Assembly (NCBI GenBank): GCA_964036665.1
Contig: OZ038533.1
Coordinates: forward strand, 1,474,001 to 1,538,000
Length of the DNA: 64,000 bases
Direction: 5' to 3'
Source of the DNA: Gordius sp. MW1
Taxonomy: Eukaryota; Nematomorpha; Gordioida; Gordea; Gordiidae
The notes below the pieces were generated by a model. The model made no database searches, had not been told where the DNA came from, and saw nothing but the letters and a program-made list of their open reading frames with translations. Position numbers and translations under genes: made by a program. Below, in pieces: positions 5,986-63,438 of this stretch. The first letter of the stretch is position 1. Each line of letters opens with the position of its first letter.

Positions 5986-6076
5986 ATATAATTAAAAATC
6001 CTTTCCATCTAATTTCAAACATATCTGTAAGATGCCTTAAATGTATTGAAACCAATCGAAAATTGTAGCATATATA

Positions 6077-8049
6077 GTTGTTAAATTGCTAAGTAGCTTC
6101 AACTAAAAATGCGAGCACGAACAGTAGCTGGGTAATATGCTAGTTTAACACAATGAGTGCTAGCTGCTCGGTGCAATAGTTTTAACAGTAGCACGTAAAA
6201 ATGCTCGAGAGGTTAGTCGAAGCAGCCAAATCTATTAAAAAATTTAGGAGGAGCTCGAGCAGTAAATTCGAGCAGATAGTAGAATGAATTGCTATCTGTT
6301 AAAATTACAATTTTAATCATATTATATATCATAAATAAATTAAGAACTTTGCCCCCCCCCCTTATTTTTTACCTTCTATCTTACCAGATGGGAGGGGGGG
6401 GGGGCCACCCCCCCCCTTATTTTTTACCCTCTTTCTTACCAGATGGGAGAGGGGGGGGGGGTTTTGCCCCCTCCCCTATTTTTTATCCTCTTTTTCACCA
6501 GAAGGGAGATGGGGGGGGGGGAGGGGGGAGAAGTGTTTTGCCCCCCCCCCCCCTTGTTTTTTATCCTCTTTCTCACCAGAGAGGAGATGGGGTTATTTTT
6601 TATCCTCTTTCTCACCAGAGGGGAGATGGGGGGGGGGGGGGGTGTTTTGCCCCCCCCCCCTTATTTTTTACTCTCTTTCTTACCAGATGGGAGAGGGGGG
6701 ATGTTTTGCCCCCCCCCCCTTATTTTTTATCCTCTTTCGAACCAGAGGAGAGATGGGGGGGGGGGGGTGTTTTGCCCCCCCCTCACTTTTTATCCTCTTT
6801 CTCACCAGAGGGAAGATGGGGCCTTGTTTTTTATCCTCTTTCTCACCAGAGAGGAGATGGGGTTATTTTTTATCCTCTTTCTCACCAGAGGGGAGATGGG
6901 GGAGGGGGGGGGGGGGGTGTTTTGCCCCCCCCCTTATTTTTTACCCTCTTTCTTACCAGATGGGAGAGGGGGGATGTTTTGCCCCCTCCCTTATTTTTTA
7001 TCCTCTTTCAAACCAGAGGGGAGATGGGGGGGGGGGTGTTTTGCCCCCCCCACCTTATTTTTTATCCTCTTTCTCACCAGAGGGAGATGGGGGGGGGTGT
7101 TTTGCCCCCCCCCCTTATTTTTTACCCTCTTTCTTACCAGATGGGAGAGGGGGGGGGGGGGGTTGCCCCCCCCCTTATTTTTTATTCTCTTTCTCACCAG
7201 AGGGGAGATGGAGGGGGGGGGGGTGTTTTGCCCCTCCCCTTATTTTTTATCCTCTTTCGAACCAGAGGGGAGATGGGGGGGGGGGTGTTTTGCCCCCCTT
7301 TTTTATCTGTCTTTTTCACTGGTGCCCCCCCCCCTGATAAAAAAAAGAGTATAAAATAAGGTTGGGGGCAAACACCCCTCCCCCCCTTTGGTAAGAAAGA
7401 GCATAAAAATAGGGGGGGGGGCAAAACACCACCCCCCCCCCCCATCTCCTCTCTGGTGAGAAAAGGATAAAAAATAAGGGGGGGGGGGCAAAACACCCCC
7501 CCCCCCCCCTCCATCTTGGTAAGAAAGAGGGTAAAAAATAAGGGGGGGGCAAAACACCCCCCCCCCCTTTGGTAAGAAAGAGGGTGAAAAATAAGGGGGG
7601 GGGGGCAAAACACCCCCCCCCCCCCCATCTCCCCTCTGGTTCGAAAGAGGATAAAAAAATAAAGGGGGCAAAACACCCCCCCCCCCCCCTTTGGTAAGAA
7701 AGAGGGTAAAAAATAAGGGCCCTCCCATCTGGTAAGAAAGAGGGTAAAAAATAAGGGGGGGGGGCAAAGTTCTTAATTTATTTATGATATATAGTATGAT
7801 TAAAATTGTAATTTTAACAGATAGCAATTCAGTCTACTATCTGCTCAAATTTACTGCTCGAGCTCCTCCTAAATTTTTTAACAGATTTGGCTGCTTCGAC
7901 TAACCTCACGAGCATTTTTACGTGCTACTGTTAAAACTATTGCACCGAGCAGCTAGCACTCATTGTGTTAAACTAGCATATTACCCAGCTACTGTTCGTG
8001 CTCGGGCATAGCACATAGTTAGCATTGCTAAAGTTAGCAATTTAACAAC
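6077..8049. mobile_element. 2-kb foldback element with about 270-bp terminal inverted repeats
   Basis: The left end (gttgttaaattgct...) is the reverse complement of the right end (...agcaatttaacaac). The inverted similarity runs through several specific blocks, including gagcacgaacagtagctggg, ttaacacaatgagtgctagc and gcaatagttttaacagtagc, then aactttgcccccc, where the arms enter a G/C-rich repeat core. The site is empty in duplication copy B (about 62,380), so this is an insertion. Possible direct-repeat flanks are 'tagcatatata' (left) and 'tagcatacatata' (right). No transposase is visible. It is a non-autonomous foldback or MITE-like element of unassigned superfamily. Confidence 0.85.
6345..7765. 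repeat. Inverted poly-G/poly-C minisatellite array (about 60-bp units)
   Basis: The left half contains about 16 tandem units of about 60 bp. Each reads C7-12, TTATTTTTTATCCTCTTTC, an ACCAGA(G/T)GGGAGATGG word, G6-16, TGTTTTG. From about 7,345 to 7,765 the same unit appears about eight times in reverse complement, so the whole array is an unequal palindrome with its turn near 7,300-7,345. Unit variants (cttaccagatggg, tttcgaaccagagg, ctcaccagaggag) recur in a higher-order order. The long ORFs crossing this array (up to 356 codons, rich in P, F, L and G) come from the repeat and are not genes. Confidence 0.9.
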
Positions 8050-9270
8050 ACTAGTAGCATACATATAAACAAGCAAGTTACAAAATTTGAATTGCGATGT
8101 GGCCTCTATTTCTTTTCAGGTTTAATATTTCGAAAATAATACTTTAATCCTATAGAAACCTATATATCAGAGACCAGAAGAGCCGGCCCAAGGGTCAACA
8201 CTCCGGCAATTAGGGCTTACTGAGGTTTTTTATATATTGTATTAATTTGTTTTTGTGTATTTTGTCACTTTTTTGATTGTATAAATATCTTATTGACGTT
8301 CTTCTTAGCCAAAAAATAATCGCAAGTTAAATTTTAAATTTTTACGAGTATATAACAGAATTACTAATGAAAGTTTAATAAATGATCATTTCGGGCCGGG
8401 CAGTTCTAACAATTCGAGCTTGGCCGGACGGACACTTAGAGGGGTTAAAGGCGGGCAATAGCTAAAATATCGGATCGGGCCGGGTTCGAGCATAAAAATT
8501 TGAACAAATCTGACCTCTGCTATATATTAAGCTCCTGAGCATAGCATTTAAAAATATCTAATATGCTACAAAAGTAGTTTACGCTTAAGTCATATGATAA
8601 ATTTAAACTCTTCATTACATTGATTTATACTTCTAATTCCCTATTAATAAGAAATTTAGTACAAAAGTAAAGCCTTTATTTTTTTACCTAAGCGTTATAA
8701 AGATGATTCAGAAGTAATAAATTAAATGATTATATAAGAATCTTAAAATTGACTAAAAAAAACCAAATTAAAATAAAATTTTAAGTAGCCAAAGCGATGC
8801 AGCAATAGAATTTAGTTGGAAATCCAAAAACAAATTTTGCCTATCCATAAGTCATCACCAATATTTTGTAGGGCTTTCTAATTTAAATTCAGACCAAGCC
8901 CATAACAATAAATATAATCATAAAAGTTAAATGTATCTTATTGACAATTAAAAAGTTTTACTTTAACAACCTTTTATTAAATTCTGGGATAACTTCAACA
9001 TCTCCCCAAACATACAAAAAAGGAAAATGTCCATTTGATATGTTACACATTATATAACCAATTAACATATACATTTTTAGATATTAAGAACATAATTTAC
9101 AAATATTTTCCACTTTAGCATCACAACAGTTTCATATTTTTCTATTAGTTTCGAGGCGCTTTTCCTTGTGTATATTGTGGAAAAACACCTAAAAATTTAT
9201 AAACAAAAACACAATTGTAAATTTTGCATTAAAAATATCAAGACATTTCAAAAAAAGGATTAAACGAAAA
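8050..9270. other. DROSHA downstream spacer with GC-rich MITE relics
   Basis: No gene. Two small GC-rich islands break the AT-rich sequence: about 8,180-8,225 (agagccggcccaagggt) and about 8,390-8,500 (cgggccggg, cggatcgggccgggtt). They resemble eroded hAT-like MITE ends. The part from about 8,750 on matches copy B downstream of its dsRBD exon. Confidence 0.4.
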
Positions 9271-9277
9271 ATGATTT

Positions 9278-9294
9278 GGGGTCATATTGACCCC
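9278..9294. promoter_or_regulatory. 17-bp palindrome at the DROSHA stop codon (GGGGTCATATTGACCCC)
   Basis: A near-perfect inverted repeat spans the last codons and stop of DROSHA copy A. The same word recurs 3' of the copy B stop at 63,248-63,264, and a close variant (GGGGTCAAAATGACCCC) lies in a DROSHA intron at 11,766-11,782. No known binding protein is implied by sequence alone. It could be a protein-binding palindrome, an RNA hairpin in the 3' UTR, or a repeat remnant. Confidence 0.4.
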
Positions 9295-12200
9295 AGATTT
9301 CTAAATAATTTTAAAATTTTACTTTTGTAAGTTTTAACAGCAAGCTGAGCCGCTTCCATTTCAGCTTGTTGTTTGCTTCTACCCCAAGCCACAGCTAAAC
9401 GATTTTCTCTAAAGTAAACGCCCACCTTAAATCTGCGTTCATTCGAAGGCCCCATACTATCAATGACCCTATTAAACAATTTTAAAAAAATTGCAAAAAA
9501 TTAAAATAAAAAAATACAAAGTTAAAATGATTTTTTCATAAATTGAAATTTACAGTTGTTTTTACAAGCATTCAGATCTTTTCGACCCTGTATTAGATTC
9601 AGGCGCATCAAATCAATAAGAAAAAGTTAGAGCTTATCCTTTCGAATGTTTTTGCACATAATAACTTGTAAAAATCAAAAAACGTTTGATAATTTTTTTT
9701 TCAAATGCAATTTATTAACCTTTTTCCCTCGATTTTAGTATTAAAAATGTCATAAAAAATAAAATCCTCCCCCAAAAACAGTCTAACAAAATATTGACCA
9801 ATATAAATTGTTTAAAAAATGATAGAGCGGCATTGAAATCTAACAATAAATAATCTTGCAAATAAAATAAAAACACTACAGGGTCAAATCCAACACGATT
9901 TCCATACACGGATCATCCGTTTAATTTTAGCGCGTTTTTGAAGTATTTTCGTCGTGAATAAAAATTTTTTATACCATTCTATTAATATATAAAAAAAAAT
10001 GTAACCAAATGTTCGAATAGTAAAAAAAACACTAATCAAATCATTCAAAAAAAGATAAACAAACAAAAAAATTAAGCTAAACGTAAAGTTTAATAAATTT
10101 ACTTGTATATAGGGACGTCAGGTTCTTTGCCATCCAAATTTCTAAGGGTTAGGCAACATTGTTGAAGCAGAGATTTAGGGTCATTCCAACTTTGATTTTC
10201 GATGAAATGATCGAGACGAGATACGAAACAAACCTGAAACAACACTTTGCAACTTTCTATTCCTTGATCCACGTATATTGCACCTATAAATATTTAACAA
10301 AAATTAATAATTTCCAAAATTTAAAATCCTTAATTCTAAATTCAAAATAACGATTTCATATCTTTCCTGATCTTTGAAATAATCTCTTTACTATAAAACT
10401 TACAACCTGCATAAATAAACAAAATTTTAGAAAGCAACCCTGCTTTCGTCAAAAAATTGACGTTTTAATAGCAAAATATAATTATAAATCTTTATCTGAC
10501 ACATGGCACTTGACGAATCCGATGAATAGTTTTTATTTATATTATATTATGCTCGTTTTTTGATCATTTTCACCTAGTAAAAGCATTTCCATTAAAAAAG
10601 AAATTATCATTAATATACTTTCTTGATTTTTAAAATAAATTAAGTATTATAAACACTATAACCTGCAAGATTGTAAAAATTTTTGGAACTTTCTCGTTAT
10701 ACAAAGCAAAGCCATTTAAAAATGATATAATAAATTTGAAAAAAAGCAATTATTTTATAATTGAGAATAAGAGTTATTATCTATGTTTTTCCAAAATGCA
10801 ATGATAAATATATGCACATATAAGGAATTTTTTTATATTTAGCAAAAAATCACAATGGAAATTGTAAAACCCAGTACATTATCAATCCATGGCTCTATGC
10901 CTGCTTATTAATGTAATATAATTTAGCATGCATGATACACAATTATTTGAAAATAAACTTCTATTAGCTAAAAACCAAAAAAATAATATATGTAATGTAT
11001 AAAACTTCTTTTTTTAGAGTAACCTATAAGAGATTCCAGGAGGTCAGCCCTGTCTTTAGTGGTCAATTCGATGTTTTCGTTGGATGAAATAATGTAGAGG
11101 GACAACCCTAAATCATTAGAAACTTCAGCTTGAGTTTGATTATTGACCAGGCAACTCCTCAATAACTAGCCAAAAAAAAATAAATATTTTATAAAATTAT
11201 AATGAAATTACATGTTTAAATTTGTTAAATTTTTAATAAATTAAAAAAAATAATTAGAAGTCTTGATTTATAGTTAATTTTGTATATATAAAGAATCCAC
11301 GTTACTTTAACCCATTTTTAACGAATTTTTTAAAATAAATTTACAAAAGTTGTTTAAAATTTAGCAGTAAAACGCTTTCAATATAGCACAATTTTTAAAA
11401 TACCCTTAAAAAACACACCAAAAGGTTTATAAATTTTTTTCATTATTTTTCAGTGTGGTGTCCTTACAGAAAGATGGCCCTCGTGGTGGGTAGGGAAATG
11501 GATGTAAAGGTATTCGGATGTAATCAATTGCAAAATAGTATCACCCAAAAATTCTAGTCTCTGATTGTGTCCCCTAAAATCAGTATTTAGATAGAATTCA
11601 TTCACAAAAATTTAAGAATAAAAAATTAAAATTTTTAATGATATGTTTTTATCGAAAATAATATATTGAATCACTTTCTTAATATTTAAGAAATTACTTT
11701 TATACCATTACTGTGCTTACATTATGACAAGATATTATATTTTTAAAACGAAAATATTGATATTTGGGGTCAAAATGACCCCATCTTAGAGTCGCACACA
11801 CCAACCCCCAAGTCTATTTAATGGCTAAAAATTATGATAAGTTTTCATCAACCGTTGTGCAATTTAAGAGCCGACCCTGGCTAGAATAAGTTACTGTCTG
11901 TCTCATAAACTAAGAGCTTGTATTAACTTCGAATTCACAGCAGATTTACATTACAGACGCATAACATAAAAGAGATTTTGTAAGATGCAAAATTTTTCGT
12001 AAGCTTAAATGTTATATGTTTTTAAATTTTAAGGTATCAACAAAGTTTGGATTTAATCTCAAGAGTTAAAATAAACAAAAAAAAACGTTTTTACCTATCA
12101 AAAAACAAAATAGTAATAATTACAACCGAGTTTGACCTATGAAATTGAATAGGATATTAATACAATCGCGCGATTTGAATCTGAATCCGATTTTAAGACA

Positions 12201-15200
12201 AGCCCTAATAAAGCAATGGACCGAAGAACAGTTAATTTGTGCATTGAAAATTAATTATTACTTAGTCCGCCATTTTGGGTGAGATTTTTTCCAAAATGCG
12301 CAATTGTGCAGCGCTAAATTACAAAAGATATGGACGAAAAAGTAGCGAGAACATTAGAAAATATTGGTTTAACATTTAGCTATCCAACAAACATGGCGCT
12401 CTTTACTTTTACTTAATCAACTGTTCGCCAATGGGACCCAACCCCGACCCGATATTGGGTTGAAAATTTTAAAATACTTTCGGGTCGGGTCGGGTTCGAG
12501 TTGAAAAAAAGTGACTTCGGAGTTCTCCAGTCCGTCCTGTCCAACTTGTGATTTTTAGATAATTTCTGTGGAAAATTAAGCTTCTTGGAAAAACTTTTAT
12601 TTTGCTTTCGCATATAGACTAGCTAATGACCACTGGTTAGCTTTAATTTTTAAATTCCATTTTTGTTTTTGTGCCCGACTAATTATAACCTTTTTAAATT
12701 ATTTTCTTTTGGCCACTCGTCTAATCAATATAAAAATTGCAATTAACCAAAACAAAGACTATTAAAAAGTTATAAAGAAATGTATATACAAAGTTAAATT
12801 GTTATGGCCCGTGTTTCTCAATGTAAAGGCCCTAGCTAGTAGGCGTATATGATTGAATCGCAATCCAGTTTGTTGTTCGAGTGTTGTAAATTTGCTTAGA
12901 ACGGGCACCTTTTCTATCCAATGCCTATCTCCGGCTGGTTCATCTTCCTAAAAAAAACCACAAATAAACTCGGCTCATATTTGAGTATTCATTTTTGCAG
13001 TTATTAACTTGAAATCGAAAAGTATATATTTGGTAGGTTAAAAGGTGTAAGCAAAATCTTATAACACACAATTGAGGCTTTATTTGAACATATGAATCTT
13101 TTTCTTTTTTACTTATAATAGATAAGAATAATTGAAATTTTTGAAAATTACAACAATTTTAATAAATAAATAAATTAAATAAAAACTTGTAAGGGGTGGC
13201 GAGATAGATTAGTCCAAACTTCGAAAAGCTTTTCATCGTCACCAAATAAGGAATTGGACAAAAAGGAATCAGCGGGCTGAATTCCTCCATCCAAAAACAT
13301 CGCACCTAACGATAATATTTTAATAAATAATTATTGCTACAAATCTTTAGAGATTGAATTAAAATGAAACATTATATCCGATAATGAATTCTATTAATTA
13401 ATTAATTAATTAATTACATGTGGAAAAAATAAAAATAAGATACAAGAATCAACATTAAACTTAGGTCAAAAGAGGAAATTAAGTTATTGGCTCCAAAATT
13501 ATTTTCCTACCAAAATTCAAAACGATATTTCTAACTATTTAAGGTCCAAAATGCTCTGACACCTAACCCCTTGAGATAAAATTTAATTAAATTATTGGGT
13601 AATAAATCATATTTCTAATCTTTTTTATAAGATTGACTATCATTATAAACATGCAAACTTAAAACCAAAAATAAATTATATGATAAAAAAAAACAATTTT
13701 TAATTATAAAGTATGCACCTAAGAGGGCTTCGAAAGCGTTTGACATAGCATGATTAAGGTCAGATTCGTGACAGAGATCGGGCCCGTGCGCGTATAATAT
13801 AAATTTCTCCAATTCTATACCCTAAAACGTAAAAAATCAAAAAAAAATATTAATTCGAAAAATATAATTTTAATAAAAATGTTTATTTTTAAAGTATAAA
13901 ATAAACTTTTGCTAGTTCAGCTAAATGATAATTTTGCACGAGGGCAGCTCTGTATACAGCAAGCCCGCCTTCTTCTATATAAGGAAAAGTGAAAAACAAA
14001 TGGACAGTGGTTAAAAATTCAAGGACGGCGTCTCCTAAAAATTCTAATCTTTCATTGTGCATCACTATATCTTTAGAGTTTGATTCCGAGTAGCCACCTA
14101 GCGGAAAATTACAAATTTATACATTATAAAAGAATTGTTTAAATATTATTTTTTTTTATATTGTATAAATTATACTTTACAAAATAAAAAGCAATTGGTC
14201 GCGTTAGTAAAATGAAGTTTGGATATTTTACGAAAATTTTAAAAGAATAATAAATCAAAAACAATATCAAATTAGACAAATAGTATTTTTAACTTATTTA
14301 TAATTTTTCGAATTTATAAACTTTATTTCACTTACCTGAATTGTCGTAATTAGCTTCACTTCTATCCCTTTCGTGTCCCTTAACCTTCATTATCCGATTC
14401 AACAGAACGATACCTAGCGAGAAAACATCAAAAAATTGCAATAATTTTAAAATCCAATATTTGAGTTTGGATGTGTATGATTCGAAAATACCCTTTTTTA
14501 CCCATACACAACACCTGCTTTTTGCATTAAAAACTATTAAGCAACATAGTCCTCCATGTTGGATGAGATCCAGTGTTGTAAAAACGGCTAGGTTTGGTTT
14601 GGTCGACCTTGCGTTTTAATCAAAGGTCTTTTGGTCTGTTTTTCTTAGTCGACCTCTAGGATTAGTCAAAAATCTGAAAAAGAGACCAGAATCGACCGTT
14701 AGTCTGTTAAACCAAAGTCGACCAAACAAAACCCAGCCGTTTCAACAACTCTATTTTACACCATTACTTAATCAAAAATAATAGCATCATTAGTCTATCA
14801 GATGCTTTCGTACCCCTTTTTCGATTCGAATTATTTTTGTGCACTTTGTCTCCGTAGTATGGATTTCTAAGGCCGCAATTAGTTAATACATTTCTAACGT
14901 GATCCGGGTTAGTCCCATACTTATCGCTATACGAGGGATGGGTCAATGCTTTCTAACGAACAAACATACAAACTTTATTTTACATTAAAATTTTTTAAAA
15001 ATATCATCTTTTAATCATATTATATTAAAAAATAACAAAAAGATATAGGATATTTGTAAAAATATATATTTATAACTACTTGTAGTAGCGATTTATCTTT
15101 GAAAACGTAGCCGATTCTAGTTTCTAGGTGGCGCAAAGAGCGATGAAACCTTAAGCGAGCTGTTAAAACTAGAAATTAATAAAAAAAAAGGTCTTATTTA

Positions 15201-17230
15201 ATGTTACCAGGTAAAATAGTGGCGTATTGAACTACGTCAATTTTGATCCCGGTCGTGTAATAGCCTAAGCTACTAACCGATATAGCTTGATATTTTTTCG
15301 TTTGACTACGATGCAAATAAAACAAAAAATCACAAATTCTCCCTTTTTATAATTAAATTTTTTATTTTTATCTCTAAATTTACAAATTTAATAATTAATT
15401 TCTACTATTTTTCTCGTGTTTCTCGTAATTCGCGCTCTTTTTCTCCCAACTTGGCCTTATCCTTTTTCGTTTGAATGGCTTTATGCACCAAAAGGTGTTT
15501 AAGTTTTTGATATTGTCTCAGCATTTTTTGATATCTTTCAAGTGTAAATTTATATTATGAAAAAATAAGTTTTTAAAAAGATTTTTTAAATTAAAGATTT
15601 ATAAAAAATTTATCTATATATTGATTACTTTGGGCAAGTAGAGTAATTAGAAGAGCTTTGACAGCTCATGTGAATCAAAATAGACTCTGACTTTTCTCGT
15701 GAATTATCATATTTCTCATCTGCTCTTTCTATTTGATCTAACCTAAAACTTCTTGGTTTCTAAAAAAATCATTTTTAATAAAAATAACAATTACAAAAGA
15801 GAAACACAAATAAATATTTAAATCCATATTTATTTAATAATTAAATTAAAATTAATATAACTTTGTTAGGGTTTGTCATAATGCTGTTTTTCCATCTGAA
15901 GATTAATTTATCCCTCTCTTCTTCGGTCATAGATTGGCTATCTTGTAAGTAAGAGTCAACCAATCTAAGATTACTCCTAAAATATTCTAAAACTTGTTCT
16001 GCAGGGAGTAAATCGCAATGTCCTAAAAAGGAGATATAATGTTAAATATATTTACAAAAAAAATCATTATTCTATTTACATAAATTAAGCTCTTATGATT
16101 TTAAAAATTAATCAAAGACCTTCTTTAATGCAATTTAAAAATGTTATTAACATATTACAAATAAGCATGATTAGTTTATTTAAACTTGAGAATTTCAAAT
16201 ATTTATAAATGATTAGGAATTTGCTTTTTTTAATGTTTATTCCAGGCAATCAGTCTAAAATCATTATGATTAAAATTATGGAAAAAATATGTTAGTTTTG
16301 AGATTTAACTTAATATTTTATAAAAAATTAATACATATTAACAAATTGAAGGACACAATTATTCATTACAATAATAATTTCTGGCCATTAAAGTGAAAAC
16401 AAAATATATTTTTATTACTTGATGATCTCCTTGCAAAAATTGGAATAAAATGGAACATTGTATTACAATATTCACCATTTGTATCATATTTAGGCAAGGA
16501 TTTATCAATCCTTATATCCCAATCCAAAAGTTCCAAGATATTTTTAAATAGATGATCTTCAAATCTATTCCAATCTTTCAAGACAATATTCTATTATAGT
16601 GTGTAATTAAAGTTTTATTAATTACCAATGAGCATGGTTGTTCTTTAATTGTTACAGAATGTGAAACATGGTATCTAGTAAATTTAAAATTTTCTATCTA
16701 ATACAAAAATAATGATCATTATGAGGATGTTATTAAACTGTGAATAACCTCCTCAATCTTATAATGAGAAAACAATGAAAATCCTTGAAATTCATAATCA
16801 ATTCCATCATGATGAATACGAGTTAGATCATTGTCCTTCATATAAATTATAAAAGTACAGAATGCCAATATTACCAAAATGTTAGTGATAGGATTCAGGT
16901 AAAGGGTATAATGATGTAAGTTGTGACAATTATTCTTTAAATTACACCTATTTGAAAACTCATAGGTGTTTTCTCCAACATAATAATTATGATTAATACC
17001 ATAACCTTTTGTTTTATTACTACATTTGCAATATTCCCCAGTATTTACCTGTTAATAATAATTAATAATAAAATATTAAACATACTCTTCCAAACTGGTT
17101 TGACAACAGATCCTTTACGTCTAACATTGTAAATTAAAATATGTATTATTGTAATCACCTTCTTGCACTGAGCCATCATCAAAAATTCCAATTATATTTG
17201 CCCAAGATGGGTTCATCAGATGGAAATCAG
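9282..17230 (-). CDS. DROSHA: DROSHA, class II ribonuclease III of the Microprocessor (N-terminus incomplete)
   Basis: Twenty-one exons with GT/AG borders join in one open frame of 873 codons: 17230-17159, 17120-17086, 17048-16875, 16835-16749, 16697-16626, 16590-16419, 16022-15862, 15759-15629, 15534-15406, 15305-15208, 15168-15080, 14952-14814, 14413-14336, 14097-13907, 13821-13719, 13305-13187, 12947-12790, 11573-11468, 11165-11024, 10283-10103, 9468-9282. In order: central domain ([43 protein letters not shown]); RNase IIIa ([49 protein letters not shown]); RNase IIIb ([43 protein letters not shown]); [18 protein letters not shown]; dsRBD ([31 protein letters not shown]). Both RNase III signatures keep their acidic residues. 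DROSHA with DGCR8/Pasha cuts pri-miRNA in the nucleus. Family members run near 1,370 aa, so a disordered N-terminal part upstream of 17,230 is unread or absent. Several introns are only 35-51 nt. Confidence 0.93.
12405..12555. mobile_element. GC-rich MITE relic inside a DROSHA intron
   Basis: A local GC-rich patch (ccaaccccgacccgatattggg, then cgggtcgggtcgggttcgag) sits in the intron between the exons at 11,573 and 12,790. It resembles the 'cccgagcccgaccc' interiors of the hAT-like elements at 44.6, 48.4 and 59.0 kb. No target duplication is discernible. Confidence 0.35.
13391..13414. repeat. (TTAA)n microsatellite in a DROSHA intron
   Basis: Six tandem 'attaatta'-type units in the intron between the exons ending at 13,305 and 13,719. 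Confidence 0.8.
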
Positions 17231-31580: not shown

Positions 31581-32070
31581 ATCTACAATGCTAAGGCAAT
31601 AATCTGACCAAATTTGGTGGCAATCGGTTGAGAACTCTAAAAGTTATTAGCGTTCAAAAAAAAGGCACTTAGATTTATATATATATAGATTATTCATTAT
31701 TTTTCAAGGATGGATTATCGGGATTTTTCGATGGTGTTAAAAAAATATTATAATTATTATAATATTTCGTTTTCATAGAAAACATCTTCAAAGTAAAATT
31801 AAGTTAAATAAAAGATTATTGAAATAATTTTGGTTGGCCGAAGCCGGCCCTATTTTTAGCTCCCAAGCTTGTTTTATTGCTATAATGCTCGTTTAAGCCT
31901 GATTAATTTTTTAACAGAAAGTGCATCCACACCCGGCTTTGGCAATGCCAACTTTATTTGCTTTAATCAAATTAGCTATAACCATAAACTACATAGACTG
32001 CTCATCACGGTATAAAATGTGTGTGTTTTTTTCCGCCATTTTGAATAACACTACCGTCCTATACCACATA

Positions 32071-32110
32071 ATGGCGTTTTGCGCTGTGCCGTTTTGTTCG
32101 AACAGGAGAG
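32071..32110 (+). pseudogene. THAP-domain-like first exon, left arm
   Basis: ATG at 32,071 reads MAFCAVPFCSNRR and ends at an AGAG|GTAAAA donor. The C-x(2-4)-C spacing followed by SNR is the beginning of a THAP zinc finger (C2CH), which in many THAP genes and P-element-like transposases is encoded by a short first exon. No downstream THAP exon was found, so it looks like an orphan captured piece. Confidence 0.5.
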
Positions 32111-32288
32111 GTAAAAAAAATGGTTTTGATTCCATAAATAAGTAAGATATTACAAAATATATGATATTTTTAAAAATTTTTAATATTATTACAGTTTTTA
32201 CATTTTTAATTTTTATGAAATGTGTCAATAATAACATATATTTTGTAATATCTTACTTATTTATGGAATCAAAACCTTTTTTCTTTAC

Positions 32289-32328
32289 CTCTCCTGTTCG
32301 AACAAAACGGTACAGCGCAAAACGCCAT
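32289..32328 (-). pseudogene. THAP-domain-like first exon, right arm
   Basis: Mirror copy of the left-arm exon. ATG at 32,328 reads the same 13 residues, with one silent change (gtg to gta), and ends at AGAG|GTAAAG. The following intron-like sequence runs into the palindrome loop, so this arm cannot continue as a gene. Confidence 0.5.
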
Positions 32329-32439
32329 TATGTGATATAGGACGGTAGTGTTATTCAAAATGGATGCAAATTTCACACACAATTTGCCATATGGAACATA
32401 TAACATGGGCAGTCTATGTAGTCTATGGCTATAACATGA

Positions 32440-37025: not shown

Positions 37026-37797
37026 AAAATCAACCGGCAAACTGTTTGCAGATTCTGGTAGAGGTTTTTACGGTGAACACAAATATGTTTTTAGTTTTTC
37101 CCCTATACGTCAAGTTTTTTAAATATTCGCTGTCAAAGTTGTCAAAAACGCGATTTTAGCGTTTTTTAAACGTCAATAACTTGCAAATTAGTGGGTAAAA
37201 CATTATTTAATAGTTTTAATTCGTAGATATAGGGGAGAGGAATGTGTTTGCAATTTTTTTTATCCTAGCATATTTACTTTTTAAATTATATTAAAATTAA
37301 CTATCCTTATCTTCTAAATTGACAAATTACCCCAGACTTGACGTCGCCCTCCCTTCTCTTTAATAATAGGAATTAAGTGCGTGTTGTTGTTTTGGTAGTA
37401 GTAGTAGTAGAGTAGATAAACAACAACACAAACAACAACACGCACTTAATTCCTAGTGTTGAAGAGAAGGGAAGGTGACGTCAAGTCTGGGGTAATTTGT
37501 CAATGTAAAAGATAGGGATAGTTGATTTTGTATATAATTTAAAAAGTAAATGTAGGATTTAAAAAAATTGTGAATACATTCCTCTCCCATATAACTACGA
37601 ATTAAATCTATTAAACAAAATTTTTACCGACTAATTTGCAAGTTATTGACGTTTGAAAAACGCCTAAATCGCGTTTTTGGCAACTTTGACAGCGAATATT
37701 TAAAAAACTTGACGTATAGGGAAAAAACTAAAAACATACTTGTGTTCACCGTGAAAAACTCTACTAGAATCTGCAAACATTTTGCAGGTTGATTTCA
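37026..37797. mobile_element. 770-bp palindromic foldback MITE, about 365-bp arms
   Basis: The arms are inverted copies along their full length: aaatcaacc-gcaaa...gtttgcagattct...ggtgaacacaa on the left and the reverse complement on the right. Inner blocks are also shared, including 'gacgtcaagtctggggtaat' and 'aggaattaagtgcgtgttgt'. The turn at about 37,390-37,440 is (gta)n plus 'caacaacac' repeats. No ORF and no clear target duplication. Confidence 0.88.
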
Positions 37798-39297: not shown

Positions 39298-39738
39298 TTG
39301 TATCACTTATATATAGCTGCACTTGTTAAAATTTATAAGCTACACTACACATACACAGTATTATATGAATCAATTTCTGATAGGGTTATAATATTTCGGT
39401 CAACTTCATCACATACACACGATGAACTTGATATTAAGGGTTCAAAATTTGACAGAAGCGAAATTAAAAAAATGGTTTCAATGGGCCTTAAACCAAAATC
39501 TTTATTCAAGAATCTTCAAAAATCAGAGCAAGTGCCATCTATAAATCATTTAAGGAATTACCTAAGTGGTTTAAAAAAAGAAAAATATGGCCCAACTTCT
39601 ATAAGCTTGGGAGAATTAGAGCATTGGCTCATTTTGAAATCCCCATTACCTGATGACAATGATATACCTTATATCGTTTCTTACAGAATATCCTATGAGA
39701 ACAGTACATTTAAGTTTTTTATATCAACAAAAAGGTAA
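39298..39738 (+). pseudogene. Mutator-like (MULE) transposase, N-terminal part
   Basis: A 146-codon frame with SHTHDELDI, KKMVSMGLKPKSLFKNLQ, INHLRNYLSGLKKEKYGPTS, LGELEHWLIL and SYRISYENSTFKFFIST has the layout of the region between the FLYWCH-type end and the DDE domain of MULE transposases found in animals. It stops exactly where a composite repeat begins (39,739). The catalytic domain resumes at 43,078 (see that entry). The start is uncertain because the first 30 residues may be intronic or non-coding. Confidence 0.65.
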
Positions 39739-40249
39739 TTAATTGCTATGCAATTTATGGGATCGTTTTTTGGTGTCCGTCGTCCGTCGTACGTCCGTCC
39801 GTCCGTCGTCCGTCGTCCGTTACCCTCCCTATCTATTTGCATTGGGTATATTAGGTTATCGCTTTTTTAAATTAATGGATGAGAAAGAGGTGCCCCACCC
39901 CTCATCTCTATCTCCCTCGCTGTGTTATTTTTTAAATTAATGCATAAGAGGTGCCCCACCCCTCATCTCTATCTCCCTCGGTGTGTTATATATAAGATTT
40001 GTTAAATTATCTATTATATAATAAACATAGATAAAAGTTGTGCTATGCAATTTAACTAGTTATATAATAAACATAAATAAAAGTTGTTTACTTTTAATTG
40101 CTATGCAATTTAACTAGTTTTGGTTATATAATAAATATTGATAAAAGTTGTTTACTTTAAATGCTATGCAATTTAACTATTTATAAATAAACATAAATAA
40201 AAGTTGTTTACTTTTTAATTGCTATGCAATTTAACTAGTTTTGGGGTTG

Positions 40250-41370
40250 GAATCCCGGAGTTTTTTTTGACTCTTATGATTGTTCTTGTTACTATCATTG
40301 ATAATAAGAATTTTTGGCCGTCCGCTGGCTGCTGACCAATGAAAAAAATGACCATTGGCCAAAATGTGAATCGAAATTATTTTTTTCGTTTTTTTTGACT
40401 ACTATAATTGTTCCTGTTTCTACCATTGCTATTATGACTTTTTGGCCGTCCGCTGGCTGCTGACCAATGTTATATAATAAACATAAATAAAAGTTGTTTA
40501 CTTTTAATTGCTATGCAATTTAACTAGTTTTTGGGTTAGAATCCCGGAGTTTTTTTTGACTTTTATGATTGTTCTTGTTACTATCATTGATAATAAGACT
40601 TTTTGGCCGTCCGTTGGCTGCTGACCAATGAAAAAAATGACCATTGGCCAAAATGTGAATCCGAGTTTATTTTTTCGTTTTTTTTGACTATTATGATTGT
40701 TCCTGTTACTACCATTGCTATTATGACTTTTTGGCCGTCCGCTGGCTCCTGACCGATGGAAAAAATGACCATTGGCCAAAATGTGAATCGAAATTATTTT
40801 TTTCGTTTTTTTTGACTATTATGATTGTTCCTGTTCCTACCATTGCTATTATGACTTTTTGGCCGTCCGCTGGCTGCTGACCAATGGAATAAAATGACCA
40901 TTGGCCAAAATGTGATTCGAAAACTTTTCTTTCGTTTTTTTTTGACTATTATGAATTTATATCCACTTTTACCGTGTCCTGGCTGCTGACCAATGAAAAA
41001 AAATGACCATTGGCCAAAATGTGATTCGAAAATTTTTTTTTCGTTTTTTTTACTCTTGTGAATTTATATCCACTTTTACCGTGTGCTGGCTGCTGACCAA
41101 TGGAAAAAAATGACCATTGGCCAAAATGTGAATCCGAGTTTATTTTTTCGTTTTTTTTGACTATTATGATTGTTCCTGTTACTACCATTGCTATTATGAC
41201 TTTTTGGCCGTCCGCTGGCTCCTGACCGATGGAAAAAATGACCATTGGCCAAAATGTGATTCGAAATTTTTTTTTTCGTTTTTTTTGACTTATGAATTTA
41301 TATCCACTTTTACCGTGTCCTGGCTGCTTACCAATGAAAAAAATGACCATTGGCCAAATTTTATATATAA
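40250..41370. repeat. Tandem array of about 125-bp 'ACCATTGGCC' units, about nine copies
   Basis: The unit has tgactattatgattgttcct, attatgactttttggccgtc, cgctggctgctgaccaatg, aaaaaatgaccattggcca and a T-rich stretch with 'tcg'. CCAATG and CATTGG form an internal hairpin. Two sub-types alternate, one with 'tatatccacttttaccgtgt'. ORFs across it are repeat-derived. Other arrays of the same unit are at 52,740-53,470 and 54,950-55,660. Confidence 0.9.
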
Positions 41371-44595: not shown

Positions 44596-47500
44596 TAGAG
44601 CCCTGCAAAATTGAATTTTATCGGCCCGAGCCCGACACGAGCCCGAAACCTTTTTTTATTTTTTGCCCGAGCCCGACCCGAGCCCGATTTATTTTTTTCA
44701 CTCAGGCCCGACCCGAGCCCGAGCCCGGCCCGACTTTTGTAAAAATGTAAATTTGTACCAATTTTATTTCAAAAATTTATTTATAAATATATTACGTATC
44801 GCGAATATTATGACGCATCGCCTAAAATGGCGGAAAAAAGGAAAACAACATAATCATCTTGGAATCTATACAAATTAGTATATATATCCCTCAAAGGATT
44901 TGGAAAAAGTTGCCGTTATCGGAAGTTCTGCACGAAAATTATATTAATTCTTATTATGCACTACAAACGGAATCCTCTACTATTTACCTAGAAATTCTTC
45001 ATGTATCACTTATCTATTAACATTGGTACATTACTTATCCCTATTTTATTAACATTCATAGTTCTTTTTACAATACATATTTAGGCCTAAATTTATATAC
45101 ATAAAAATAAATATTAAACATAAGTCCACATACAATGCAACAATCACCTTTTTCATACACATATTATCCTTAAAATGTTCAGAGGTTTTTTTATAAAACT
45201 AATATCTATATAATTTATATAATCTTAATAATGGTTCACCAAATGCTTTAATTCCTAAAATAAGTTAAAAATGGTTTCAACTAAATCCTTTTGTTATACA
45301 TGCAAAAAACTTATTAGCCTCAAAAAAAAATAACTGTTTTATAATACATGGCCACCCTTCTGCTCGTTGTATCTCCTCTGCGAAATTCCCACCTGCTAGC
45401 CCTCTTATTCCACCTCTTGCCTCCATAATAGAGGATGCTCCTCATAATGCCCCTTGCTCGTCCAACTCAGATACTCAATCCTTAGACAGCCCCATTATTA
45501 CCACTTCTTTGGACTATTCTTGGAGTGATTCTTTTTTAGCCTTAACCTTCCCCAATACTATTTCAAGAATCCCTAGGGGAGCTCGCCCGGCTTCTCAACA
45601 GTTTTTAATCAACCTTATAACTTCCATAACAAACTCTCCCTCAAATCTTACTAACTGGGATAAACTTTTCAGGTTTACCTTTCACACCTTATATGTAAGA
45701 GGACCCAACGCTGAAAAACTGTCCAAACATATTAAAGACTCCTTTTTAAATTTCAATATTGATAATATTTTTAAAAATACCCCCCAGCACAAACAATCCC
45801 CAAACTCCTCCACTGCCAAGCAAACTGCTAAACTAATTTCTAAAAAAATTGATAACTTTAACCCCAAAAGTGCTCTAAGAATATTTTATGACAATGACTC
45901 AATTGCTCCTTACTCCCTTGATTCATACCAACAACTCAAATCTAAACATCCCCCTCCTCATCGGCAAATCGACTCCCTACCTCAGCCTCTTCCATAAAAC
46001 TAGACTCATCCAACATTCGGGAAGCCATCAATTCCTTTCCCATCGACTCTGCAGCAGGCCTTGATGGTTTCCGCCCTGTTTATTTACAAGACCTGATTAA
46101 CCTCCAAAATGTGAGCGCTGCAATTTTACTCAACTCTATAACGTCCCTATGCAATTTAATTGTCAACGGTAATATTCCTACCGAAATAATCCCTATATTG
46201 TTCGGCGCTAAACTCATCGCTATCAAAAAACCTGATAATTCGGTGAGACCCATTGCTATTGGCAGTGTTTTTCGACGTATAATATCAAAACTCATTTGTA
46301 AGACAATCAAATCCAGTTTAAGCGACAAGTTAATTCCTCATCAATTAGGATTTGGGGTTAAAGGCGGCTGTGAGGCTGCCAGTCACGCTGCGCGGATAAG
46401 ACTAAAACAAATTCCCTCCAATCACTGCATGGTTAAACTGGACTTTGCCAATGCTTTTAATAATATTCGCCGAGAAACGATAATAAATACCTTCATTGAT
46501 GAGTTTCCAAAGTTTTCAAATTACATCAGTTTAAGTTACGGTTGTATATCAAAACTAAAGTTTGGGGACTTTTTAATTGATTCGGCAGAAGGTATTCAAC
46601 AGGGAGACCCCCTAGGTCCACCTCTGTTTTGTCTTGGGATCAATAATTTAACTGAATCCCTCTCAAACCAATGCTCATTATCATTAAACGTCTGGTACCT
46701 GGACGATGCTACCTTATGCGGCCCTCCTGAAGAAATTTCCAAGGCCATTCTTTTAATCCAACATTATGAAACCTCCCTATACTTGAGATTGAATATCTCT
46801 AAATGCGAGATATATCAGTGCCCGGATACAAACAAATTTCCCATTTTTAAGCCCTTTTTAAAAGTTGAATTGATGAGTTTTACTCATCTAGGCTCTCCAA
46901 TAGGTGGGCAAATCGCCTTAAAAGAATTTTTACATAGCCACTTATCAACTCTTATATCGAAGATGGATATTCTTAATACCCTCCCCAAACACCGCGCATT
47001 TTATATCATTAAAAACTATTTCAACATCTCAAAAATTCAACACTGCTTCCGGTCCTCTTCAGCCTTTTTATTGCCCGAGATTTTAAAAAGCTACGATAGC
47101 TTCATGAAGAATACTTTAGAAGCAATTCTTAATATCAAATTCAGCACTTCCTCGTGGCTCCAAGCCTCTTTACCTACTAAAGCTGGCGGCTTGGGCATAC
47201 GCCCAGCTACCTCAATTTCGTTAGTGCGTTTATCTCTTCTTATAAATCTGCCCAAGGATTGATCGACCGTTTAATCACAACAAATGAGGATCCGTCGTTT
47301 GTAGAAGCCCTAGACGTCTGGTCAGCCAACGTCAACCCAGGGACCCCCTTCCCCATAACCTCTAGACAAAAGGATTGGGATGCTGGCCTCGTATCGCGCT
47401 CCGTTGATTACCTCTTATCGAGTTGCGACGCCCGCCAGCACTTCAACCTTAAATCTTTAGTTTTTGACGGATCGGGCCATGAGTGGCTTGAAGCTTATCC

Positions 47501-52146: not shown

Positions 52147-52419
52147 TAAAATGTATAAATTGCTATGTTTTAAATTATTAACGATTTTAAAATGACATTC
52201 TAATATCTTATATTTGAAAATAAATTAATAAATTGTTTTTTAAGATTTTAATGAAGATACTTTTAGGTTAATTGCGGCACTCCTACATGAGTTTTTCAAA
52301 ATTAAACAATCTATAGGGAAGTGAGCATGTTCAAAAATTGACGATCCATCACGACTAGATAACCTCTCCCCCCTCTCCCTATAAAATCAAAAGTTTTTTA
52401 CACGCACGGGGTAATATTA

Positions 52420-53913
52420 ATTGCTATGCAATTTATGGGCTCGTTTTTTGGTTGTCCGTTGTCCGTCCGTTGTCCGTTGTCTACCCTATCTATTTGCATT
52501 GGGTATATTAGGTTATCGATTTTTTAAATTAATGCATGAGAAAGAGGTGCCCCACCCCTCATCTCTATTTCCCTCGCTGTGTTATTTTTTAAATTAATGC
52601 ATAAGAGGTGCCCCACCCCTCATCTTTATCTCCCTCGGTGTGTTATATATAAGATTTGTTAGAAAATCTATTATATAATAAACATAAATAAAAGTTGTTT
52701 ACTTTTAATTGCTATGCAATTTAACTAGTTTTTTAGTTAGAATCCCTGAGTTTTTTTTTTGACTCTTATGATTGTTCTTGTTACTAACATTGATACTAAG
52801 AATTTTTGGCCGTCCGCTGGCTCCTGACCGATGGAAAAAATTACCATTGGCCAAAATGTGAATCGAAATTATTTTTTTCATTTTTTTTGACTATTATGAT
52901 TGTTCCTGTTCCTACCATTGCTATTATGACTTTTTGGCCGTCCGCTGGCTGCTGACCGATGTTATATAATAAACATAAATAAAAGTTGTTTACTTTTAAT
53001 TGCTATGCAATTTAACTAGTTTTTGGGTTAGAACCCGGAGTTTTTTTTGACTCTTATGATTGTTCTTGTTACTATCATTGATAATAAGAATTTTTGGCCG
53101 TCCGCTGGCTCCTGACCGATGAAAAAAATGACCATTGGCCAAAATGTGATTCGAAATTTTTTTTTTGTTTTTTTTACTATTATGATTGTTCCTGTTCCTA
53201 CCATTGCTATTATGACTTTTTGGCCGTCCGCTGGCTGCTGACCAATGGAATAAAATGATCATTGGCCAAAATGTGATTCGAAAATTTTTTTTTCGTTATT
53301 TTTGACTATTATGAATTTATATCCACTTTTACCGTGTGCTGTCTGCTGACCAATGGAAAAAAATGACCATTGGCCAAAGTGAGCATCAAAATTTTTTTTC
53401 CGTTTTTTTGGCTATCATTGACTTATAGAGTATCTGTTAGTACTGACCAATGGAGAAAAAATGACCATTGGCTAAATTTTTGATTTTTTTAATTAAAAAT
53501 TGTTCAAATTTAACAAAAAATTTCTCCCAACAATTCTGCAAATTCTTAACATTGTGATGTTTTATAATATAATGTTTGTTAGACCCATAATCACTAAAGG
53601 CCATAAAAACTAATGTAATACGCAACTAGATGCAAACACTGAATCTAACCCTAACCCTTGCCTCTATTACATTTTGCCTATATTAAATTTTGCCTATAAA
53701 TGGAAAATTTGTATAAATAATTAATTAATCATTAGGCATTTAATACCCCCCTATAGGCATTCTCGCCCCTTCCCACCTTTCTCGCTCATAAATTGCATAG
53801 CAAATATGATACATTTATACGGAGTATAGATGAGTCGTCCCCCCTTCCCTTCCCCTCCTCCCCTTCCCCCTCCCTTCTCCCCCTTCCCACGAGGGCCGAA
53901 GGCCCGAGTTTTA
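52420..53913. mobile_element. Composite repeat copy 3, both ends present
   Basis: The left end is 'aattgctatgcaatttatgg' at about 52,420. The right side has 'ctcataaattgcatagcaaa' (about 53,787), the C/T-rich tract and the 'cgagggccgaaggcccgag' hairpin plus T-run ending near 53,913. The interior has the CCATTGG array (52,740-53,470) and an 'aatctaaccctaacccttgcc' segment shared with 38,890. Confidence 0.75.
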
Positions 53914-53939: not shown

Positions 53940-56900
53940 TTAATTGCTATGCAATTTATGGGCTCGTTTTTGGTTGTCGGTTGATGTCTGTCCGTTGTCC
54001 GTTGTCCGTTGATGTCCGTCCGTTTACCATCCAATGTATATATTTAATTAAATAAATATTTTGTTCTTGTTAATACCAATGATAATATGACTTTTTGACC
54101 GTCCGCAGGCTACTGACCATTGAAAAAATGACAATTGGCCAAATAAATCGAAATTTTTTTTCGTTTTTGAATAGGTTAACATTGATAATTACCCTATGCC
54201 CTCCGCTACAAGGGCCTATGCATCTACTGATATGGGTCTCTGTGCCCCTATTTAAATTAAATTAATATTTTGTTCTTGTTAATATCATTGATACTATGAC
54301 TTTTTGACCGTCCGCTGGCTATTGACCAATTAAAAAATGACCATTGGCCAAATAAATCGAATTTTTTTATGAAACTGCCCGGGAAATGTCCGATATTTTT
54401 AAAACGAAAAGGTATTTTAGGAATTTGAAAAAGCTATTTTACCCCTGGCCGCCCTGGGCACCTACGGGTAAAGTTTCGAGCGAATTGAGCCTGTAGTTTC
54501 AGAATTTAGCCCTTTTTTAAACTAAAAGGAATTTTAGGATCCTGCAAGAGCTATTACTTTAAATTTTATTTATTTAATTTAAATAGTTTGTTAAACCCCA
54601 ATAATTTTGACTGTATACTGTAACATTGATAATTTGACTTTTTGACCGTCCGCTGGCTACTGACCATTGAAAAAAATGACCATTGGCCAAATAAATCGAA
54701 ATTATTTTTTCGTTTTCGAATAGGTTAACATTGATAATTACCCTATATCCTTTCCTACAAAAGCCTATGCCTCTACTGATATGGGTCCCTGTGCCCCTAC
54801 AAAAGTTTTAATTGCTATGCAATTTATGGGCTCACTTTCCATTTTGTTTGTCCGCCTATTCGGCGTGCTACACCGCATGTCTTGTCACGCACCGAATGTC
54901 TTGTTTTGTTTACTTTTAATTTTTGTTAATTTAACTAGTTTTGGGGTTCGAATACCGGAGTTTTTTTTGACTCTTATGATTGTTCTTGTTAATACCGTTG
55001 ATAATAAGATTTTTTGGCCGTCCGTTGGCTGCTGACCAATGAAAAAAATGACCATTGGCCAAAATGAGAATCGCAACTATTTTTTTCGTTTTTTTGATTA
55101 TTATGATTGTTCTTGTTAATACCATTGATAATATGGCTTTTAGGCCGTCCGTTGGCTGCTGACTAATGGAAAAAAATGACCATTGGCCAAAATGGGAATC
55201 GCAACTATTTTTTTCGTTTTTTTTGACTATTATGATTGTTCTTGTTAATACCATTGATAATATGGCTTTTAGGCCGTCCGTTGGCTGCTGACCAAAGGAA
55301 AAAAATGACCATTGGCTAAAATGTGATTCAAAAATTTTTTTTTCGTTTTTTTTGACTCTTATGAATTTATATCCACTTTTACCGTGTCCTGACTGCTGAC
55401 CAATGGAAAAAAATGACCATTGGCCAAAATGTAATTCGAAAATTTTTTTTCGTTTTTTTTTGACTCTTATGAATTTATATCCACTTTTACCGTGTCCTGT
55501 CGACCAATGGAAAAAAATGACCATTGGCCAAAATGTGATTCGAAAATTTTTTTCGTTTTTTTTGACTCTTATGAATTTATATCCACTTTTACCGTGTCCT
55601 GGCTGCTGACCAATGCAAAAAATGACCTTTGGCCAAAATGAGCATCAAAAATTTTTTGGCCAAATTTTACATATAACCTAAAAATTTATTATAGATGGTC
55701 TAACAGACAGCCAACTATGTAATATATTTTTAACCTTATAAATGCATATATATATGTTTTTATTGGTTTAATATATTTCATTTAATTAGATTGTGATTTC
55801 ATAGAAAACCTTAAAAGTAATAGTTAAAAAAATATAGGTATTAGATTCTAATTTACGATACAATATATTGATAGAAACTAACACACAATTTGACCCGAAA
55901 CCCGATCAATTTTCTATTAATTATGCTTTAATTTAACTTATCATTTTATATTCTTTTAAATTAAATCTTTCTATAGAAAGTGGGATAATTATTCTATGAA
56001 AGAGTTTTCTAAAAATTTAAAAATCAATAATCCTCCATCTATAGATGATTCTATTCCTAACATTTAAATAGCTTAATTTGAAGATAGTTATATTATATTT
56101 TAATTTTTAATTTGCTATTTGTTTATTTGAAGGGAGAGAAGGGATGACTTAAAGGGAAAAAATTTAAGACATTAAGATACCTTATAAACTTTAAAAATTT
56201 AACAATCAGGTCTCCAATCTATTTAATTTAGCCAAAAAAAAACTATTTCAATTTCCACACTCTCAATTTAACTTTATTTTTACAAAATATTAGTGCTAAA
56301 TAGATTAAGATCATGTATTATTTATTAAAATTACTGAGCATTTTTGATTTTTTAATGAGCATCTAAATAACATCCACTTTGTAATATAAATATGCTTTAA
56401 AAGGTCTATTTGCAAGGATAAAATATCTAATTCACTTTTCAACTTATGCAATATCATGCATAGCTTCCAAAAATATCGATTTCTCCCTCGCTGTGTTAGA
56501 ATAGTAATACATACGCGTGTCTCCTCCCCACATCATCTCTCTCTCTTGTTATCGATTTTTTAGGCGGGGCCGGGTTTTAATTGCTATGTTAAATTAATGC
56601 ATAAGAGGTGCCCCACCCCTCATCTCTATCTCCCTCTTTTCCCCCCATAGTAAAATTAGTATTATTTTTAATTTATTAATATAGGAGTGGGGGGTGTGGT
56701 AGATGTATTGAACAGAAGTTATTAATTGAGGGAGGAGGGTTGGAAATATTTTATTTGTTAAAAGGGTCAATTTTCAAAATGCTTCTCCCAAAATCATTAT
56801 AAAATATGAAACAAATTCTTGAATTTTTTGCTAATTAGTTATTAATTTGATGATCAAAAAAAGCCTATTGCTGAAGTTTTTAACGGCTATATCCCCTAAC

Positions 56901-62274: not shown

Positions 62275-62340
62275 TGCAGTGGCGTAGCCAGCGGGGGGGG
62301 GGGGGGGGGGGGGAAATATTTAATGTTATTTTTTTTGATT
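62275..62340. mobile_element. Truncated MITE: CAGTGGCGTAGCCAGC plus a G-run of about 22
   Basis: It starts CAGTGGCGTAGCCAGC, then a long G homopolymer. 'gaaatg' flanks both sides as a possible short duplication. Copy A lacks it (about 6,034). The right terminal repeat is absent. Confidence 0.65.
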
Positions 62341-62486
62341 GAAATGTATTTAAACTAATTGGAAATTGTAACACACATAGGAACACAAAATTTATATTGT
62401 CATGTGGGCTCTATTTCTTTCCACTTTACATAATCAGAAATATTTAATATGCTATAACAAATAGTTATAAATGACAAATATAAATT

Positions 62487-62645: not shown

Positions 62646-63287
62646 TATTTATTTATATTTTAATTCGAAATTCATTAAGAAAATTAGTAAAAAATGAAGC
62701 CAAATATATTAATTTTTCCAATTAAAAGTAATAAAGAAGATTAGAATTAATAAAAATTATAGATCATACAATACTCTCAAAAAGCGAAAATGAAAATAAA
62801 CCTATTAATAGCCAAGTCGATGCAGCAATAGAAAATCTTAATAAAAATATTTTGCCTGTCAATCGTCACAAAAATTTTGTACGGCCTTCTATGGCACATA
62901 ACAATAAATAAAATCATAAAAATTCGATATATCTAATTGGCAATAAAAAAGTTTTACTTAACAACTTTGTATTAAATTATGGCATAATTTCAACATATCT
63001 CCAAGTCCAAACATACAAAAAGGGGCAATGTCCATTTTATATGTTACACATTAAAAAACAAATTAATTATCAACAATTTCCTATTTTTCTATTAGTTATG
63101 AGGCGCTCTTCCTTGAGTATATTGCGGAAAAACACCAAAAATATAAAAACAAAAATACAATTGTAATATAACTAATAGCATTAAAATTATCAAAACATTT
63201 TAAGAATCCTTATATATATATATATAAGGTTAAACATGGTATAATTTGGGGTCATATTGACCCCATATTTTAAAATATGTTTAAAAT

Positions 63288-63438
63288 TTAACTTTTGTAA
63301 GTTTTAACAGCGAGCTGAGCTGATTCCATTTCAGCCTGTTGTTTGCTTCGACCCCAAGCTACAGCTAAACTATTTTCTCTAAAGTAAATGCCAACCTTAA
63401 ATCTGCGTTCGTGCGAAGGGCCCATGCTATCAATAACC
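63288..63438 (-). CDS. Second DROSHA copy, C-terminal dsRBD exon
   Basis: The exon begins after an AG acceptor at 63,439-63,440 in the same phase as copy A and reads [48 protein letters not shown], then TAA. It shares 45 of 49 residues with the dsRBD exon at 9,468-9,282. By eye there are about 14 nucleotide changes, of which about 10 look silent. The stop falls 12 residues earlier than in copy A. The frame is intact and changes are mostly synonymous, which argues for a selected paralogue rather than an old pseudogene, but the rest of the gene lies outside the window. It could be a partial gene duplicate. Confidence 0.8.

Follow-up and report, generated by a model that had tools for sequence, protein, structure and literature searches.

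The element inserted at positions 6073 to 8053 of a 64-kb stretch of the Gordius sp. MW1 genome is a copy of an abundant transposon family that may be undescribed, and its inverted G/C minisatellite core is shared with transposons that carry other ends. We consider it probable that the element is a non-autonomous, hAT-like foldback DNA transposon whose core has been resized and exchanged as a block. Foldback elements are usually explained family by family, through repeat expansion inside their arms. Here, the interior has a centre of its own by which it can be recognised and followed independently from one set of ends to another. It thus becomes testable whether unrelated transposons exchange their interiors in the course of evolution and whether a palindromic array promotes such exchange. 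Core exchange would also explain the thousands of copies of the minisatellite unit scattered over the 212-Mb genome.

Structure and insertion site of the element

The window, that is, the whole 64-kb stretch of DNA that was analysed (G000:C7:1474001-1538000), comes from an assembly of 211.8 Mb in 12 contigs. A preliminary description had placed a foldback element at 6077-8049; the element is there, but its exact limits lie a few bases further out, at 6073 and 8053, which gives a length of 1981 bp. It is flanked by an 8-bp target-site duplication (TSD), GTAGCATA, at 6065 to 6072 and again at 8054 to 8061. The left arm, with the left-type tip TATAGTTGTTAAATTGCTAAGTAGC, occupies 6073 to 6351 on the plus strand (inner limit judged by eye), and the right arm, whose right-type tip reads TAGTGTTGTTAAATTGCTAACTTTAGC from the outside in, occupies 7765 to 8053 on the minus strand. 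As in the preliminary description, which gave terminal inverted repeats of about 270 bp, the arms are long: they measure about 280 bp and are 98% complementary across 285 nt (6112-6396 versus 7720-8004). The longest exact inverted match within 6000-8100 was 96 nt, compared to a maximum of 18 among 50 dinucleotide shuffles.

Between the arms lies the core (6352 to 7764, limits judged by eye), an inverted G/C minisatellite of ∼60-bp units, in which Tandem Repeats Finder (TRF) reported ∼60-bp arrays from 6348 to 7298 and, at 7454-7719, an array with a 117-bp (two-unit) period. The unit length had been read correctly from the outset, but the number of units, put at about 24, falls to 22 marks (15 forward, then 7 reversed), or 21 under a stricter module. 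These units aim inwards and switch direction once; the flip had been located in the middle of the element, whereas it lies off centre, near 7310-7350, where a junction common to most copies (7310 to 7350) reads TTTTTCACTGGTG, a C-run and then TGATAAAAAAAAG. The core contains 19 G-runs of 6 to 15 and 18 C-runs of 6 to 14. Every unit had been thought to carry both kinds of run, at lengths of 6 to 16, but some units of 38 to 41 bp have short runs only. The preliminary description had thought a kilobase-scale hairpin or many G-quadruplexes possible; by motif count, classical G-quadruplex motifs number nine on one strand and one on the other.

An empty site, recognised already in the preliminary description, lies at 62336 to 62425, beside the second of two DROSHA-like copies: the joined flanks of the element align there, with a single, slightly diverged copy of the target, GTAACACA. 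Long terminal inverted repeats holding tandem repeats, the architecture of a foldback element, are thus combined at 6073-8053 with the marks of transposition, namely target duplications, dispersed copies and an empty site, and the reading as an inserted mobile element is borne out.

The DROSHA-like copies (9285-16500 and 62647-64000, both on the minus strand) lie ∼54 kb apart, the second running past the end of the window; they are so labelled because of matches to Ribonuclease 3/Drosha chains, the best having E values of 1.5e-31 (13892-14116) and 7.6e-06 (63291-63470). Just outside the empty site, the paralogous flank has an insertion of its own at 62276-62330, GTGGCGTAGCCAGC followed by ∼21 G, which the first copy does not have.

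Family A in the genome

Querying the genome with the left-arm DNA gave 41 matches, 40 at 93 to 100% identity and one at 80% (40 of 1248 candidates scored). With up to 3 mismatches, the left tip was found at 455 sites in the genome and the right tip at 141, with 100 places from each search among the matches listed; the reversed patterns matched nowhere. Besides the window copy, 20 loci were fetched, and 18 copies in total had both ends inside the fetched stretch. They span 958 to 3068 bp. Their TSDs match at 8 of 8 positions in 15 copies (in L021 after a 3-bp shift) and at 7 of 8 in the other 3. Only the left end was present in L011, whose right-tip match falls immediately beyond the fetched stretch, in L016, which runs into other sequence, and in L026, whose core is interrupted. 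Each of the 18 two-ended copies has asymmetric tips, with TATAGTTGTTAAATTGCTAAGTAGC on the left and, on the right, TAGAG (TAGTG in the window copy) followed by TTGTTAAATTGCTAACTTTAGC. The 19 clean TSDs tend weakly to GTnnnnAC (G1 in 10, T2 in 7, A7 in 10 and C8 in 11).

The preliminary description had allowed for the palindrome being an artefact of assembly, and long palindromes and homopolymer runs are generally error prone in assembly. The run lengths may indeed be wrong. Against a false palindrome, however, stand the 8/8 or 7/8 TSDs of the 18 two-ended copies, 17 of which lie elsewhere in the genome, the single target at the empty site and the difference between the two arm tips in every one of these copies. 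These results clear the structure, run lengths in raw reads apart, and we regard an artefact as hardly conceivable. Copy number and target duplications, which the preliminary description had singled out for checking, come out as expected of a mobile family.

The two arms of a copy diverge from each other by 3.6%, versus 4.6% between copies, and 0 of 20,000 permutations reach the value within copies. This divergence is compatible with conversion between arms, but subfamily ancestry fits it too.

Probable origin and resizing of the G/C core

The unit module TTATTTTTTAYCCTCTTTCTYACCAG (at most 1 mismatch) has 4050 matches in the genome, and its reversed control has none. In the 18 two-ended copies the units face inwards with one main switch, an isolated contrary mark being present in L021, L024 and L025. 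At this switch, TTTTCACTGGTG, a pyrimidine run and TGGTAARAAAAAG (at most 2 substitutions per side) were found in 15 of 18 copies versus 0 of 360 mononucleotide shuffles. The pattern fails in L019, L022 and L027, of which L022 resembles a degenerate form; beyond these copies, its strict form is also absent from L047, a copy of family C (see below), both copies of family B, two older copies and L038. The number of units on either side of the junction varies, but the junction itself is common to most copies. Since 15 of 18 copies have one junction, a single origin of the foldback is most likely, with later changes in the length of its arrays. One ancestral inverted duplication would have generated the foldback, and slippage or unequal exchange could have resized the arrays. 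In L014 and L024 the junction is reversed relative to the copy's own tips, as would be expected from recombination between the inverted arms.

Long runs are fewer in two older relatives, which lie as second copies in L020 and L023: among their runs of at least four, 2 of 15 and 1 of 6 reach nine. In the window copy 29 of 55 do so, and the lowest value among the 18 young copies is 9 of 25. This contrast fits either later growth of the homopolymers or their age-related decay.

Probable exchange of cores between transposons

Ends and core proved to be separable. Five loci (L029-L033) carry the left tip AAGCAG in place of AAGTAG, behind which the arms are the same as those of family A at 88 to 91% identity. 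All five have inverted self-matches, of 392 to 1140 nt, and their TSDs are a perfect 8 bp in four and 7 bp in L032 (by eye). At L029 and L032, the two loci where it was resolved with TRF, the repeat is a 129-bp unit unrelated to the G/C core; a stretch of this unit has 920 matches in the genome, with places within L031, L032 and L033 among the matches listed.

Conversely, the G/C core was found behind other tips when seven G/C clusters without a listed family A left tip were fetched. Two of them (L043 and L048) define family B, with tips TAGTGTTGTTAAAATGCC, the left one occurring at 93 sites; L043 has the 8-bp TSD ATGTGCAG (by eye), and one end of L048 was fetched. A BLAST comparison of family B with the A arm gave no match, and neither B copy has the flip junction. 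The remaining five belong to family C: L044, L045, L047 and L049 match both of its arms, and the C right arm lies on both sides of L046. Tip counts for family C are 97 on the GGTGTAATATTGGAG side and 118 on the GGTGTAGCGTACAG side. Its left tip reads CCGGTGTA in 8 of 9 and its right tip TACACCGG in 9 of 9 paired copies, although the search patterns already required part of these. A shared 8-bp stretch was present at the expected place in 0 of these 9 copies; a CCGG duplication and the absence of any duplication fit alike.

Four of the five C copies, the exception being L047, contain the A flip junction. Moreover, in L044, L047 and L049 the 47 to 51 bp adjacent to the core match the A inner arm at 88 to 98% identity and then diverge. 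Judged by eye, this inner arm is the shortened form of young A copies, unlike that of the two older relatives, and from this we infer that family C probably acquired its core from family A.

The same sharing is visible in a tally of tips along C1:1-19.54 Mb, the region where exact units were listed, with A tips at 0 to 1 mismatch only. Within 2.5 kb inside the left tip, a unit was present at 7 of 8 A(AAGTAG), 1 of 5 A(AAGCAG), 7 of 8 B and 4 of 5 C tips, compared to 0.6% by chance. As many as 15 of 36 unit clusters lie near no listed tip, including those of L046 and L047, both of family C by their arms; the host transposons of the core are therefore only partly known.

We conclude that sharing of the G/C core among transposons is real. 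Apparently the core originated a single time and is passed as a block from one transposon to another, which could happen by recombination, conversion or nested insertion. More tentatively, the inverted G/C minisatellite may be a cassette in its own right, with a single origin and a conserved centre. It would pass between mechanistically different transposons (TATAG/TAGWG tips with 8-bp duplications; CCGGTGTA...TACACCGG tips without an 8-bp duplication) and ride whichever is active, while an old host takes up another repeat core.

Could the core instead be a selected functional device, supplying extra transposase-binding sites, an array of splice sites or a hairpin RNA? Its 26-bp module is near-identical across families A, B and C and reads like a putative 3' splice site inwards and GTRAG outwards. 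Tandem repeats in the terminal inverted repeats (TIRs) of Galileo, according to the available parts of PMC3573991, hold secondary transposase-binding sites. However, the same arms have spread with the unrelated 129-bp core, and the tips of A and C differ, making one transposase that uses both unlikely. The diagnostic splice base is not kept in family B (G in 25 of 81 units). Only one of three folded stretches of about one unit stands out (z of -2.84, -0.95 and -1.33), and a search of Rfam at the gathering threshold gave no match. We thus find a functional core improbable. A splice trap, with the unit acting as a 3' splice site when read inwards and as a 5' site when read outwards, was rejected both for the unconserved base in B and because this order of sites would include, not remove, sequence in the transcript. 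Most likely, the G/C runs are a side effect of unstable repeats and not a structure under selection.

Superfamily and candidate partners

The assignment to a hAT-like superfamily draws on the ends. The family has 8-bp TSDs, as hAT elements do, and its weak target preference recalls the GTnnnnAC preference of some hAT elements. At L041, a 573-aa frame that matches the hAT models PF05699 and PF14372 (E values of 1.1e-22 and 6.8e-07) is flanked by TAGTG...CACTA tips and the 8-bp duplication TAAATTGC, and the window copy agrees with this element in its right tip, TAGTG, and in the length of its duplication. Neither the left tip, TATAG, nor TAGAG, the right tip of most copies, is identical to TAGTG. 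Short tips of hAT type have A2 and G5, a weak criterion which TATAG and TAGAG or TAGTG fit. The long arms, on the other hand, are unusual for hAT. No transposase gene was found between the family's own tips in the copies opened, the left-tip search having listed 100 of its 455 sites. Given the TSD length, the TAGTG tip and the lean of the TSDs, but no transposase of its own, we call the family hAT-like with moderate confidence. A transposase supplied in trans would recognise the tips and arms, and movement would be by cut and paste.

The same kind of foldback might have been moved by a Mutator-like (MULE) transposase, as was suggested for Tetris and proposed for Tm1. Mutator elements generate TSDs of 9 bp (8 to 11), with 8 bp at the edge of the range. 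Their long arms agree with those seen here, and the genome holds many dispersed frames that we take to be MULE-like. Moreover, the accessible text of PMC4079207 counts most foldbacks as Mutator elements, and the duplications are 8 to 10 bp in Tetris (PMC4079207) and, in the part available of PMC3169594, mostly 9 bp in Tm1. Nevertheless, the TSDs found here are 8 bp and not 9, and none of these MULE-like frames lies between the family's tips as its own gene. The presumed MULE-like frames had no MULE match in Pfam or NCBIfam, and a frame in the window at 43077-43493 matches MULE at an E value of 0.011, below the cut-off. A Mutator-like origin therefore appears less likely, and the hAT-like reading is preferred. 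The 7-bp TSD of Galileo was not found in this family, whose TSDs are 8 bp.

Several candidates for an autonomous partner were rejected. The C-terminal transposase-like frames of L029, which we presume to be MULE-like, belong to a nested 1.64-kb dispersed repeat, also at L034-L037 (95 to 99% identical, none with the family's ends). The hAT dimerisation domain of L038 sits likewise in a nested 1.1-kb dispersed repeat (L039 and L040, 98%). L041 consists of two inverted hAT elements, L042 is a palindrome with other tips, and at L050, picked for a hAT match 3 kb inwards from the left tip of family B, the end is cut off and other repeats are present. Both dispersed repeats (1.64 kb in L029 and L034-L037, 1.1 kb in L038-L040) carry only C-terminal transposase-like frames, their copies being 95 to 99% identical.

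Other palindromes and repeats were observed along the way. The two hAT elements of L041 (G000:C6:5653000-5660500) each have the same open 573-aa frame and are 99.6% identical over 3.37 kb; the centre between them holds a minisatellite region resembling the window's. Related minisatellite-bearing repeats with periods of 108, 128 and 289 bp, found in the L041 centre as well, lie in the window at 39738-41358, 52416-53415 and 54906-55657. At 734-6703 of L042 (G000:C4:10866000-10873500) lies a palindrome of 5.97 kb that is 99.7% self-complementary. Both of its arms contain one and the same 194-aa frame; we take this frame to be MULE-like, and it had no Pfam or NCBIfam match. Comparable pairs of inverted frames occur at other loci. 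In the window, imperfect palindromes lie at 32014-32385 and 37027-37795 (86% and 88% self-complementary), and there is a reverse-transcriptase frame at 45946-47262; its five best matches in the database all come from Gordionus sp. (Nematomorpha), at 41 to 47% identity.

Comparison with known foldback systems

As in the present element, the inverted repeats of FB of Drosophila and TU of sea urchin are long and consist of short direct repeats. Within the limited open-access literature we found no report of one inverted core common to transposons with different tips, which by itself says little. The architecture as such, for which the preliminary description knew of no described family, has precedents: in the parts of the reports available, Tetris (PMC4079207) and Tm1 (PMC3169594) are foldbacks whose terminal inverted repeats are composite and contain tandem repeats, and in Galileo (PMC3573991) the TIRs likewise include tandem repeats and some copies are chimeric.

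Tetris of Drosophila virilis, likened here by its description in the accessible text of PMC4079207, is similarly non-autonomous, with a flanking domain and tandem repeats inside inverted arms, duplications of 8 to 10 bp, a variable number of repeats and further arrays of these repeats outside the element. In contrast to the present family, its unit is ∼220 bp and has no G/C runs, only three structurally complete copies are described, and its authors place it in Mutator. Tm1, a Mutator/Foldback element of root-knot nematodes, resembles the present family, by its description in the available sections of PMC3169594, in its composite arms, variable numbers of tandem repeats, target duplications, asymmetric short motifs at the outer tips and differing classes of interior behind similar ends. 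It differs in its 13- to 15-bp unit, its mostly 9-bp duplications and a putative transposase in some members. Galileo of Drosophila, as far as the available text of PMC3573991 describes it, belongs to the P superfamily and has 7-bp duplications, unlike the family described here, but it shares the long arms with tandem repeats and forms chimeras with the arms of one subfamily and the interior of another. Those swaps are described for subfamilies of one transposon, whereas the G/C core is found across transposons with different tips.
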